Both the position numbers and the translations under genes were made by a program. From NCBI GenBank assembly GCA_900314555.1, contig OMVQ01000059.1, positions 1 to 64,000 of the forward strand: a stretch of DNA of 64,000 bases, written 5' to 3'. Below the pieces are notes generated by a model. That model ran no database searches. It was given only the letters and a program-made list of their open reading frames with translations, and was not told the DNA's origin. Source of the stretch: an uncultured Eubacteriales bacterium. Its GTDB lineage: Bacteria; Bacillota; Clostridia; Lachnospirales; Lachnospiraceae. Position 1 is the stretch's first letter, and each line of letters opens with the position of its first letter. This document shows, in pieces, positions 214 through 15,754 of the stretch.

Positions 214-303
214 ATGATGAACAGAGAAATGTGTAAATGTTGTAATATGTGTTGTAAAAGTTCTGTATGTAAAAATATGGTTTGTTTTCTGAACACTTTT
301 TGA
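214..303 (+). CDS. Cys-rich leader peptide (29 aa) upstream of cysK
   Basis: A 29-residue ORF starts at ATG 214 (or 217) behind the purine-rich ribosome binding site AGAGGAAG (196-203). Seven of 29 residues are Cys (positions 7, 9, 10, 13, 14, 19, 24), every one coded TGT, and there are also five Met. It ends 23 nt before a strong intrinsic terminator that precedes cysteine synthase. This is the layout of a classic attenuation leader: ribosome stalling at Cys codons under cysteine shortage would favour read-through into cysK. The attenuation role is inferred. An alternative is a small thiol- or metal-binding peptide. No competing antiterminator fold was worked out. Confidence 0.6.
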   Translation: MMNREMCKCCNMCCKSSVCKNMVCFLNTF

Positions 304-325
304 TAAGAACTGTTATGTATTTAGC

Positions 326-364
326 AGCAGCCATCACATCAAAAGTGTGCCGGCTGCTTTTTTT
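326..364 (+). terminator. Attenuator-like terminator before cysK
   Basis: AGCAGCC (326-332) pairs with GGCTGCT (352-358), with an inner CACA/TGTG stem (335-338/346-349), followed by a T run to 364. It lies between the Cys-rich leader peptide and the cysK ribosome binding site, so transcription of cysK must pass it. This fits regulated termination. Confidence 0.75.
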
Positions 365-399
365 AAAATAATATGATTTATTTAAAGGAGGATAAGCAT

Positions 400-1335
400 A
401 TGAGCGAAATTAAAGAAAGTGCATTGGAACTGATTGGAGGAACACCTATTTTAAAATTGAACAGGTATGCAAAGAAGAGAGAAATTACTGAGGCAACAGT
501 ACTTGCAAAATTAGAATACTTAAATCCGGCAGGTTCCGTAAAGGATCGTATTGCCCAGGCAATGATTGAAGATGCAGAAAAGAATGGAAAGTTAAAACCA
601 GGTGCAACAATCATTGAACCTACAAGTGGTAATACCGGTATAGGTCTTGCAGCAGTTGCAGCAGCAAAGGGATATAAAGCAATTTTAACACTTCCGGATA
701 CTATGAGTGTGGAACGTAGAAATCTTCTGAAAGCATATGGTGCAGAACTGGTGTTAACTGAAGGTGCAAAGGGAATGAAAGGAGCAATTGCAAAAGCTGA
801 GGAGATTAATAAAGAAATTGAAGGCTCAGTTATTTTAGGACAGTTTGTGAATCCTGCAAATCCAAAGATTCATAAGGAAACAACAGGACCTGAGATTTGG
901 AAACAGACAGATGGCAAGGTTGATATATTTATTGCAGGTGTTGGTACAGGTGGAACAATTACAGGAGTTGGTGAATACTTAAAAGAACAGAATCCAAACG
1001 TTAAGATTGTGGCAGTAGAACCGGCATCAAGTGCAGTACTTTCAACAGGTAAGCCGGGAGCACATAAGATTCAGGGTATTGGAGCAGGATTTGTGCCGGA
1101 GGTACTCAATACAAAGGTATATGATGAAATCATTACAATTGAGAATGAAGACGCATTTGCAGAAGGAAAAGCATTTGCTGTTTCAGAGGGTATCTTAGTC
1201 GGTATATCATCAGGTGCAGCTCTTAAGGCAGCAGAGATACTTGCAAAGAGACCGGAGAATAAAGGTAAAACAATCGTTGCGCTGCTTCCGGATTCTGGCG
1301 ACCGTTATCTTTCAACAGCATTGTTTAATTCATAA
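400..1335 (+). CDS. cysK: Cysteine synthase (O-acetylserine sulfhydrylase)
   Basis: This 311-residue PLP enzyme forms L-cysteine from O-acetylserine and sulfide in the cytoplasm. The PLP lysine is K48 in NPAGSVKDR. The substrate loop TSGNTG follows at 75-80, then the phosphate-binding GTGGT, the canonical HKIQGIGAGFVP segment and SSGAA near the C-terminus. Length matches the family. The ATG at 400 is chosen because AAAGGAGG (384-391) sits 8 nt upstream; an in-frame ATG at 373 has no such site. Of the three CysK-type genes in this cluster it is the only one with fully canonical motifs. It lies behind the Cys-rich leader and attenuator and is followed by a YezD-like gene. Confidence 0.93.
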   Translation: MSEIKESALELIGGTPILKLNRYAKKREITEATVLAKLEYLNPAGSVKDRIAQAMIEDAEKNGKLKPGATIIEPTSGNTGIGLAAVAAAKGYKAILTLPDTMSVERRNLLKAYGAELVLTEGAKGMKGAIAKAEEINKEIEGSVILGQFVNPANPKIHKETTGPEIWKQTDGKVDIFIAGVGTGGTITGVGEYLKEQNPNVKIVAVEPASSAVLSTGKPGAHKIQGIGAGFVPEVLNTKVYDEIITIENEDAFAEGKAFAVSEGILVGISSGAALKAAEILAKRPENKGKTIVALLPDSGDRYLSTALFNS

Positions 1336-1361
1336 ATCTTTAATCCCGGGGAGGTGGTTTT

Positions 1362-13895: not shown

Positions 13896-14670
13896 CAAAA
13901 AAGTAGCAGTAATTACAGGTGCAGGACAGGGAATTGGTCTGGCGGCAGCATATAAGTTTGCAGAGGAAGGCTGGGCAATTGCACTGATTGACCTTAATAA
14001 AGATACGGTAGAGAAAGAAACGAAGATTTTACAAGAGCAGGGGGCTGATGCAGCTTTCTATATATTGGATGTAAGCGATTTTGAAAAGGGAAGAGAAGTT
14101 GTGCAGCAGATCAGACAGCGTTTTGGAAGAATTGATGCACTGTTTAACAATGCTGGTATTACAGGTCATCGTCTGGATGTTCTACATTGCGATCCACAGG
14201 AAATTAAACGGGCAACAGATGTGAACCTTTTTAGTTCTCTTTATATGACACAACATGTGGCAAAAGTAATGGTAGCCGAGAAAATTAAGGGTGCTATTGT
14301 AAATGTATCCAGTATATCAGCAGAACTTGCTTCCTGGGACCCGTTCGGATATCAGATATCTAAATATGGAGTAAAAGGTCTGACAAAATCGACAGCATTT
14401 CAGCTTGGTGCTTACAACATCAGAGTAAATGCAGTGGCACCTGGTACGACAAGGACACCTATGTCTGAGATGGACTGGAGTAATCCTGAAATCTGTAAAA
14501 TGTGGGAGTCTAAAAATGTACTGCATAAATGGTTAGAGCCGGAAGAAATTGCTAATGCAGCATATTTTCTAGCATCAGATGCAGCAAGTGGGATTACAGG
14601 AGCAATTCTGATGGCAGATGCAGGATATACCATAACGAAAGCAGATAACCGTGAAAATATCTATGAATGA
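13888..14670 (+). CDS. Short-chain dehydrogenase/reductase
   Basis: This 260-residue classical SDR starts at ATG 13888 behind AAGGAGGAAC, overlapping the LanC-like gene by 8 nt. The cofactor motif is TGAGQGIG, followed by NNAG, the SSIS serine and the catalytic YQISK; DLN after the second strand suggests NAD(H). The C-terminal ASGITGAILMADAGY is typical. It belongs to the LanC-like/CysK3 unit and probably oxidises or reduces a hydroxy or keto group on the same compound. Substrate unknown. Confidence 0.88.
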   Translation: MNDKKVAVITGAGQGIGLAAAYKFAEEGWAIALIDLNKDTVEKETKILQEQGADAAFYILDVSDFEKGREVVQQIRQRFGRIDALFNNAGITGHRLDVLHCDPQEIKRATDVNLFSSLYMTQHVAKVMVAEKIKGAIVNVSSISAELASWDPFGYQISKYGVKGLTKSTAFQLGAYNIRVNAVAPGTTRTPMSEMDWSNPEICKMWESKNVLHKWLEPEEIANAAYFLASDAASGITGAILMADAGYTITKADNRENIYE

Positions 14671-14685
14671 ATGGAGTGAAAAAAG

Positions 14686-15675
14686 ATGAAAAATATCAAA
14701 AAATCTATTACCGAATTAGTTGGAAATACCCCCCTTTTAGAACTGACAAATTATGAGGAGAAATATCAGTTGAAAGGGAAAATACTTGCAAAACTGGAGT
14801 TTTTTAACCCTACCGGAAGCGTAAAAGACCGTGCGGCACTGGCAATGATTGAAGATGCAAAAGAAAAGGGACTTATTGGAGAAGGCAGTACACTGATTGA
14901 TGCTACAAGCGGAAATACGGGCATCTCACTGGCAGCACTAGCACATGCTAATAAGATGGAATTTGAGGCATATTTGGAACCGGGAGTGACTATCGAAAGA
15001 ACACAGATTTTTGATGCTTTTGGTGTGAAACAGTACGATTTGTCAGAGATTCCGGGACTGGAGAATATGCAGACGGAGGGACTGGTTCTGGAAAAATTGA
15101 TTGAAGGATTTAAGACACTTGCTAAGGAAAAAGACCAGCATTATGTCGGTCAGACCATCAATGATGCCAATCGTATGTGTCACTATAAGACTACCGGACC
15201 AGAGATTTGGCGTGATACGGAGGGAGAAGTAGATATCTTTGTGGCAATGGCAGGAACCGCTGGAACACTCGTGGGAACGGGAATGTATTTAAGGGAAAAG
15301 AATCCGGATATTCAGATTGTAGGAGTACAGCCACATCCGGATTCCAGACCTGAAGGAGAACATTTTACAGGACATATGATTGATGGCGTACTGCCAATTG
15401 GAAGAGTAGATAAAAAGCTGATTCCTCCACTTATTCTGGAAAACATAGACAAAGGATTTCAGATGGATGAAGTGATTGACATTTATGCGGAAGATGCATA
15501 TGTTACGGCAAAAGAACTGACAAGAACAGATGGACTGTTCCTTGGAACTTCTGCTGCAGCAGCAATAACAGCAGGCAGGATACTGGCATCAAGACCGGAA
15601 AATGCCGGTAAAAATATTGTTGTTATGATTCCGGATAACGGAATGAAATATCGTTCTACTGATATGTATAAATAA
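14686..15675 (+). CDS. Divergent cysteine synthase-family PLP enzyme (third copy)
   Basis: This 329-residue CysK/CBS-fold protein keeps PLP lysine K47 (NPTGSVKDR) and ATSGNTG. The PLP-phosphate loop GTGGT is GTAGT, SSGAA is TSAAAA, and HKIQGIGAGF is replaced by a HMIDGVLPIGR-type stretch. The changed active-site edges resemble those of the second copy and argue against ordinary cysteine synthesis. It ends the LanC-like/SDR operon, directly before a strong terminator. It probably builds or breaks a C-S or related beta-substituted amino acid. Confidence 0.83.
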   Translation: MKNIKKSITELVGNTPLLELTNYEEKYQLKGKILAKLEFFNPTGSVKDRAALAMIEDAKEKGLIGEGSTLIDATSGNTGISLAALAHANKMEFEAYLEPGVTIERTQIFDAFGVKQYDLSEIPGLENMQTEGLVLEKLIEGFKTLAKEKDQHYVGQTINDANRMCHYKTTGPEIWRDTEGEVDIFVAMAGTAGTLVGTGMYLREKNPDIQIVGVQPHPDSRPEGEHFTGHMIDGVLPIGRVDKKLIPPLILENIDKGFQMDEVIDIYAEDAYVTAKELTRTDGLFLGTSAAAAITAGRILASRPENAGKNIVVMIPDNGMKYRSTDMYK

Positions 15676-15713
15676 TGTATATTTAACGGAATACCTGATG
15701 TGTAGTTAGTATG

Positions 15714-15754
15714 GCCTTGAAGAATGCTTAGAGTAAGTATTTTTCAAGGCTTTT
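15714..15754 (+). terminator. Terminator ending the sulfur/nitrogenase-like region
   Basis: GCCTTGAA (15714-15721) pairs with TTCAAGGC (15743-15750), with further pairing inside (AAT..CTT / AAG..ATT), followed by TTTT. Confidence 0.85.

Follow-up and report, generated by a model that had tools for sequence, protein, structure and literature searches.

A nitrogenase-like locus interleaved with cysteine genes

We analysed a stretch of 64,000 nucleotides (positions 1-64000 of contig OMVQ01000059.1, hereafter the window) from the genome of an uncultured Lachnospiraceae bacterium, which comprises 124 contigs and 2.66 Mb. The window opens with a cluster in which nitrogenase-like genes alternate with genes of cysteine metabolism, all on the forward strand. 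The nitrogenase-like part consists of a nifB-like radical SAM gene without a NifX domain (1721-2593; 268 bits with the NCBIfam nifB model, below the cut-off of 344), nifX1 (2586-2945; PF02579), nifH (2959-3807; 466 bits for a cut-off of 394) and two pairs of genes for alpha (D) and beta (K) subunits. The first pair, D1K1 (nifD1, 4830-6296; nifK1, 6298-7596), resembles methylthio-alkane reductase (Mar). The second, D2K2 (nifD2, 8653-10107; nifK2, 10109-11398), has an alpha subunit that belongs to a separate clade lacking Loop I of the cofactor site. The assignments of all four subunits draw on scores against the PDB, trees and residue alignments.

Upstream lies cysK1, encoding a cysteine synthase A (400-1335; TIGR01139, 453 bits for a cut-off of 351), and a divergent gene of the cysteine-synthase family, cysK2 (3822-4817; 329 bits with the cysKM model, just under its cut-off of 344), separates nifH from nifD1. 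Before cysK1 there is a short open reading frame (ORF) for a Cys-rich peptide (214-303; 29 residues, 7 Cys codons, all UGU), a predicted attenuator leader, and between the two a terminator-like hairpin with a T-run (326-364; -16.8 kcal/mol), which is not in the list of our consensus terminator scan. Between cysK1 and nifB stand a gene for a small YezD-type protein (DUF2292; 1362-1520; PF10055, 64 bits for a cut-off of 22), a conserved ACTGACTGGAAAGACCAGAGG motif with a hairpin and T-rich run behind it (1516-1580), and a tRNA-Cys-like element found by ARAGORN and by the Rfam tRNA model (1599-1668; 38.9 bits for a cut-off of 29). The two D/K pairs are separated by nifX2, with a Cys- and Gly-rich insert (7652-8095), and by a regulator of the Rrf2 family (8173-8589), whose nearest named models, CymR and IscR, both score below cut-off.

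A preliminary description of this DNA had listed NifB-, NifX- and NifH-like genes, two D/K pairs, three CysK genes, YezD, Rrf2, LanC-like and SDR proteins, a Cys-rich leader and the tRNA-Cys-like element, and had treated them as a single cluster. Family models, ARAGORN and Rfam placed every one of them where it had been reported, and we add the Cys-rich second NifX and a reverse-strand LysR gene (11465-12346). The view of one cluster held for the core, whose order is more than chance because it recurs in many genomes; the LanC-like, SDR and CysK3 genes, with the LysR gene, form a stretch outside this recurring core. The reported lack of nifEN was borne out: a search of the window's genome with D2 gave four D/K matches, every one inside the window, and hence we saw no NifEN pair. 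The same genome holds one full-length NifH (PF00142).

Both D/K pairs are allied to Mar and distinct from it

The best PDB match of all four subunits was MarD or MarK of Rhodospirillum rubrum, whose bit scores were over double those of every other entry (the structure 9FMG is given as MarDK in PMC12552129, seen in part). D1, K1, D2 and K2 scored 306, 377, 236.5 and 226 bits against MarDK, and at most 128, 92, 107 and 98 bits against any non-Mar entry. An AlphaFold2 model of D2 had a mean predicted local distance difference test score of 51 and was left out of fold searches.

We inferred a D tree of 51 rows (18 D1 and 14 D2) and a K tree of 52 rows, after removing L105, L012 and one out-of-frame Methylococcus ORF. 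The trees are without Anf, Isr, Bch and Cfb rows, and Anf, Bch and Cfb were compared by profile and PDB scores only. D1 and D2 formed two separate clades, each with support of 100. The D1 clade stands beside the group containing MarD, and the Nif and Vnf D/E rows lie outside, with the exception of one long VnfE row that joins the base of the other side. The K tree agrees: the K clades are near MarK, and one long VnfN row sits at the base. Neither D1 nor K1 lies inside the characterised MarD or MarK clade; each forms its own clade (support 99-100) beside the group that holds Mar. D2 and K2 are closer to MarDK than to NifE and NifN by PDB scores and in both trees (D2 against NifE: at most 78 bits). 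The phylogenetic check suggested in the preliminary description thus puts both pairs on the MarDK side, and by these trees neither is inside the Nif/Vnf clades tested, be it of D, K, E or N rows.

The cofactor-site residues separate the two alpha subunits. Cys270, His194, Trp195, His375, Arg428 and His429 sit at those numbers in the matched MarD chain. In D1 the P-cluster cysteines (all three), Cys270, Trp195, His375 and Arg428-His429 are conserved throughout the 18 rows, and position 194 holds Ile rather than His. The 14 D2 rows all keep the P-cluster cysteines and Cys270, and in every one Trp195 is replaced by Cys, His375 by Thr, and Loop I (Arg428-His429, with its histidine ligand) by a gap. 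At the column of His442, D1 has Phe (18/18) and D2 has Met (14/14), as has one NifE row; this column is imperfect, and some Nif and Vnf rows miss His442 in the same alignment. On the beta side, all three cysteines are conserved in K1 and K2, except in one truncated row. Arg428-His429 has been suggested as a hallmark of Mar, according to the part of PMC12552129 available to us. On this evidence we would not classify the system as Mar, because D1 falls outside the characterised MarD clade and D2 fails the hallmark residues. D1K1 nonetheless likely works like Mar, judging from its residues. Neither pair looks like Isr, since IsrD, in the portion of PMC11423573 at hand, keeps one of three P-cluster cysteines and is without Cys275 and His442, and both D1 and D2 keep the equivalents of Cys62, Cys88, Cys154 and Cys275.

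Distribution among genomes

Many gut and rumen bacteria share the cluster. A scan of named genomes gave 170 stretches with relatives of D2, of which we kept 80 (D2 identity 81-93%). The carriers among these 80 of 170 are Lachnospiraceae, Ruminococcus-like Clostridia and Treponema, mostly metagenome-assembled genomes (MAGs); isolates include Butyrivibrio hungatei, Eubacterium ruminantium, E. uniforme and Ruminiclostridium hungatei. We searched 28 of the 80 genomes in full for D1 and NifB. D1 (at least 81% identity) was present in 24/28 and NifB in 24/28, and of the four genomes without D1 three were also without NifB, a joint absence that may reflect loss in MAGs. Among 150 genomes of the window's family, six carry D2 (at least 86%), and all six have a second D of the D1 type, confirmed in five at no less than 89% identity to D1.

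The pairs also occur apart. D1 clusters without D2 are found in G097 (D1 at 82%) and G129 (94%; a genome 86% complete), and G068 combines D1 at 92% with only short remnants of D2 and K2. In G047, D2K2 comes after nifB-nifX-nifH-cysK2, and D1K1 is on another contig. A further genome, G142, has D1 at 75%. Plasmid pTS2 of Treponema saccharophilum carries a related system (L186): two further D/K pairs with nifB, nifX and nifH, besides cysK, a MetY-type gene and an ABC transporter. R. hungatei (G169) gave 25 matches to D1; among them are D1 and D2, a row that groups beside MarD (L194) and other nitrogenase-type genes.

Sulfur-linked neighbours

CysK is the most constant neighbour of the cluster. 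It lies immediately upstream of nifB in 17/18 loci with room for it and between nifH and D1 in 15/19, and CysK genes stand near nifH or nifB in other nif-like clades of the family (L192, L200, L222). The co-occurrence of cysK with the cluster, which the preliminary description had proposed to survey, is therefore found well beyond the window. The family has yet another nif-like D/K clade (L189, L192, L200; 33-37% identity to D2), again with CysK-family genes within a few kb.

Clustering the neighbours of the 80 D2 loci showed an NMT1/TauC-type transporter pair in 17, NifS-type genes in 12, CysE-type genes, rhodanese-MoeB and PatB-type C-S lyases in 11 each, and MetB/MetC-type genes in 6. At least one sulfur-linked neighbour was present in 56/80 loci. 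The neighbour names rest on one representative per cluster, with TauC and CysE below curated cut-offs, and the counts are a lower bound, as tblastn shows a CysK in L041 that clustering had missed. Homologues of CysE were found in 7/7 genomes, above cut-off in two.

The siroheme nitrite/sulfite reductase domain PF01077 was not found in 28 of 29 D2 genomes (6/7, then 22/22 further ones); the control search was positive in 11/14 named genomes. Because this domain is absent in nearly all carriers tested, we infer either release of the sulfur in the form of sulfide or a thiol, or its reduction by the system itself.

Beyond the core, the window continues with the LysR-family regulator introduced above, then a LanC-like gene (12513-13895), an SDR oxidoreductase (13888-14670), all three identified by family models, and cysK3, another divergent cysteine-synthase family gene (14686-15675; cysKM 258 bits, below the cut-off of 344), the last three on the forward strand. 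A terminator-like hairpin from the consensus scan follows cysK3 (15713-15751, forward strand). Such matches carry little weight: the region has 7 terminator-like matches against 7.0 in shuffled sequences, and neither promoter- nor terminator-like consensus matches are commoner than in shuffles. LanC-like genes also follow D2K2 in L016, L041, L048, L051, L053 and L074, with 28-35% identity to that of the window. Above Rfam cut-offs only the tRNA family was found, in the window and in 17 loci; a plasmid antisense-RNA match at 15682-15763 scored below cut-off. Further downstream (16818-21323), two ORFs resemble by eye an Hsp70-like protein and a J-domain protein.

A tRNA-Cys-like element before sulfur genes

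We collected 47 distinct nifB-bearing loci, 46 of them with upstream sequence. The tRNA-Cys-like element occurs some 27-147 bases before nifB in 18/46, including the isolates RM5 and E. ruminantium. ARAGORN, Rfam and the alignment agree on a cloverleaf, whose anticodon stem keeps an A-G mismatch in 14/14 aligned copies. In these 14 copies 94.3% of the helix cells are paired and seven pairs are changed on both sides; the covariation score was reached by none of 500 shuffles, and slid controls drop to 25-51% paired. One of five covariation measures, that for further pair types, did no better than shuffles (360/500 reached it). When 16 elements are aligned with two ordinary tRNA-Cys, 94.2% of cells are paired and ten pairs show two-sided changes. 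A covariance model built from the copies gives the elements 94-98 bits and the tRNA-Cys genes of tRNA clusters at most 55.

The element is not confined to nifB. Five of the 150 family genomes contain it: four before nifB, and G014, which gave no D match, before metK, accompanied there by a gene for a TauC/SsuC-like permease (L206/L210). Of the 392 genomes searched in the order, eight contain it, including G000 and G491 before nifB and G459 before an HD-domain gene. Five genomes of one genus (L215, L217-L220) have, in this order, a Cys-rich leader, a hairpin ending in a T-run, the element, yezD and metK, and in four of these the anticodon loop has shrunk to the four bases GGCA. Family models confirmed the metK, HD-domain and yezD placements.

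Is it a tRNA? Identity elements of tRNA-Cys are U73 and the GCA anticodon, according to what was available of PMC9976931. The anticodon is GCA in 13/14 copies (ACA in RM5), and the acceptor stem is followed by a purine (G or A), never by U73, in 14/14; position 33 is C in 5/14. ARAGORN and Rfam call the element a tRNA, and one might take it for a real, charged tRNA-Cys, or mainly for a processing signal for RNase P or RNase Z, with no regulatory part. The zero spacing between the terminator T-run and the element in another genus would suit such a signal. Pattern scans found no second tRNA-Cys in the window's genome, which would favour a genuine tRNA; these scans are non-exhaustive and noisy, miss real genes, found none in G158, G165 and G150 either, and only their ARAGORN-confirmed matches were used. 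In G152, G164 and G173 an ARAGORN-confirmed tRNA-Cys lies inside a tRNA cluster besides the element, and there we reject the element as the sole tRNA-Cys. The altered anticodon and loops, the loss of U73 and the recurrence before nifB, metK and yezD-metK also speak against both versions, and we regard this explanation as doubtful, if possible. A decoding role is unlikely because U73 is lost, the loop is altered and the element recurs before these genes. We think that it is probably an RNA of a sulfur regulon, either a tRNA mimic in the leader or a small RNA cut by RNase P. Since GCA is kept while U73 is lost, cysteinyl-tRNA synthetase would be our guess for its partner. The literature on tRNA-Cys, Cys attenuation and DUF2292 with tRNA mimics, covered through titles and abstract openings, gave no description of these elements.

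Cys-rich leaders and a yezD-linked motif

Leaders of 26-40 residues, with 5-7 Cys and several Met, stand directly before cysK1 in 9/19 cysK1 loci, and the eight leader loci that we folded all show a hairpin (-12 to -17 kcal/mol) with a run of T's behind it. A Cys-rich leader ORF and a terminator are the layout of ribosome-mediated attenuation, and these leaders are predicted to respond to the charging of Cys-tRNA. The yezD-metK loci of the other genus have a Cys leader (6-8 Cys) and hairpin too (5/5).

The strict form of the motif after yezD, ACTGACTRGAAA..CYAGAGG, is present in 11/30 yezD-bearing loci (the window, L004, L122, L129, L207, L209, L215 and L217-L220) and is followed by a terminator-like hairpin; looser forms occur in Treponema. 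Its small stem varies in both halves (CTGG/CCAG, CTAG/CTAG). It is possibly a yezD-linked attenuator.

Proposed function and alternatives

We consider it probable that the Mar-allied D/K pairs reductively cleave organosulfur compounds, that CysK enzymes trap the sulfide or thiol, and that the whole is regulated by cysteine. NifB and the NifX proteins would make and carry an [Fe8S9C] cluster, and NifH would pass electrons, with ATP, to D1K1 and D2K2. D1K1 would perform a Mar-type C-S cleavage of an organosulfur compound, because the Mar cofactor residues are kept. D2K2, without the known histidine ligands, would be a second reductase for another sulfur substrate, and the cysteine synthases would recover the freed sulfide or thiol as cysteine. 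Control could act at three levels, an attenuator in the Cys leader before cysK1, the Rrf2 protein and the tRNA-Cys-like RNA before nifB, so as to switch the cluster on when cysteine is short. The earlier proposal that the cluster reduces a sulfur compound and that CysK captures the product is thus partly supported, with substrate, product and capture all inferred by us from sequence. Neither of the two outcomes that were to disprove it, a second pair inside true nitrogenases or a lack of CysK co-occurrence, was seen.

Several observations weigh against this interpretation. In 8/15 loci the CysK that separates nifH from D1 has a similarity to CysK2 of only 42-44%, and 24/80 D2 loci, Butyrivibrio among them, have no sulfur-linked neighbour within the stored flanks. 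The tRNA-Cys-like element is missing in 28/46 nifB loci, and 10/19 cysK1 loci have no Cys-rich leader. D1 falls outside the clade of characterised MarD, and both trees come from short searches with long branches flagged. R. hungatei is the sole D2 carrier tested with PF01077, and the domain is also missing in 4/4 D1-only genomes and in 8/13 other hand-picked ones. Its absence may therefore be lineage-wide, and many of the genomes are MAGs; this is why we hold the interpretation to be probable and no more.

D2K2 could instead be a cofactor scaffold, a counterpart of NifEN that matures the cluster or inserts it into D1K1, which alone would be catalytic. In favour of this, the Mar histidine is missing from D2, the His442 column holds Met as it does in one NifE row, and D2 accompanies D1 in 24/28 genomes and in 6/6 of the family sample. 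A scaffold fits less well with the D1 clusters that have no D2 or only remnants of it (G097, G129, G068), with the proximity of D2 to MarD (236 bits) rather than NifE, and with D2K2 being found in separate loci with sulfur genes and, in G047, after nifB-nifX-nifH-cysK2; moreover, the R. rubrum Mar is described without NifEN in the part of PMC12552129 consulted. We judge this role unlikely. Rather unlikely, in our opinion, is an ordinary Mar for methionine salvage, with methanethiol as its product and the CysK genes as bystanders of a general sulfur locus. The Mar residues of D1K1, the MetB/MetC-type genes near D2 in 6/80 loci and the MetY-type gene beside cysK on the Treponema plasmid would agree with it, but the D1 clade stands apart from MarD, a row closer to Mar exists alongside D1 in R. 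hungatei, CysK is the most constant neighbour and D2K2 is left without explanation.

A bolder possibility, which we consider quite unlikely, is a siroheme-free route in which D1K1 would cut the C-S bond of an imported compound and D2K2 would take the oxidised sulfur so released down to sulfide in a multi-electron reduction; when cysteine runs out, the Cys attenuators and a dedicated non-decoding tRNA-Cys mimic would turn the route on. D2K2 would then hold the NifB cluster without a histidine ligand and replace the missing sulfite reductase, in a regulon extending to yezD-metK in other bacteria. Highly improbable, finally, is a divergent nitrogen-fixing system. NifB, NifH and the P-cluster ligands are there, and PMC9147875, in the part available, puts forward N2 fixation by a divergent heliobacterial NflDK; yet both pairs lie outside the Nif/Vnf rows, the genome has no further D/K pair, His442 is absent, and the sulfur neighbours and Cys leaders point elsewhere.

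The preliminary description had seen here a candidate undescribed sulfur-directed reductase. The sulfur link stands (the CysK order, the sulfur neighbours, the Cys leaders); the D1K1 branch is allied to the described Mar. The new parts of the system are the second pair and the RNA element, for neither of which did we find a description in the literature searched, mainly titles and abstract openings. If cysteine-responsive organosulfur reduction is the true function, cultured Butyrivibrio, Eubacterium and Treponema use such genes for sulfur nutrition and not to fix nitrogen. A survey of human faeces assigned 39/44 nifH-type operational taxonomic units to Cluster IV, of largely unknown function and most of them nearest to Clostridiales (PMC4995403, seen in part). 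A D subunit with the cluster cysteine but neither known histidine ligand would be a test of how nitrogenase-type cofactors are held and tuned, and sulfur-linked RNAs would gain a new kind in an element derived from tRNA-Cys that recurs before nifB, yezD-metK and another operon.

Comparison with known systems

The closest known system is Mar (MarBHDK) of R. rubrum, as far as the account in PMC12552129 is available. It shares with the locus the best-scoring structure for all four subunits, a NifB-type gene, NifH and the cofactor residues of D1. It differs in that D1 has Ile at His194 and a clade of its own, Loop I, Trp195 and His375 are missing from D2, most carriers tested here have two pairs, and CysK genes are interleaved. 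Isr (IsrBHDK) of Rhodobacter capsulatus is likewise a Group IV nitrogenase-like system with a radical SAM partner, an SsuABC-type transporter and sulfur-assimilation genes nearby, going by the accessible portion of PMC11423573. There, IsrD is reported to lack equivalents of Cys62, Cys154, Cys275 and His442, unlike the cysteine-bearing D1 and D2, and Isr releases sulfite, whereas the carriers here are nearly all without PF01077. The Group IV NflDK paralogues of Heliophilum fasciatum resemble the system in that several NifDK-like pairs share NifB and NifH, one pair is MarDK-like and there is a link to sulfur assimilation; the part of PMC9147875 at hand mentions no CysK interleaving, Cys leader or tRNA-like element, and these paralogues were compared by description, being absent from our trees. 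With NifEN the system shares the lack of His442 in D2, as in NifE rows, but MarD is by far the better match to D2, and some D1 carriers have no D2.

For the RNA element, the E. coli thrS operator is a tRNA-like regulatory leader. The yjdF riboswitch, as outlined in the part of PMC9142559 consulted, is also a tRNA-shaped structure in the leader of a bacterial gene. The element described here differs from both in being a full, tRNA-Cys-derived cloverleaf tied to sulfur genes, placed in some loci after a Cys-rich leader.

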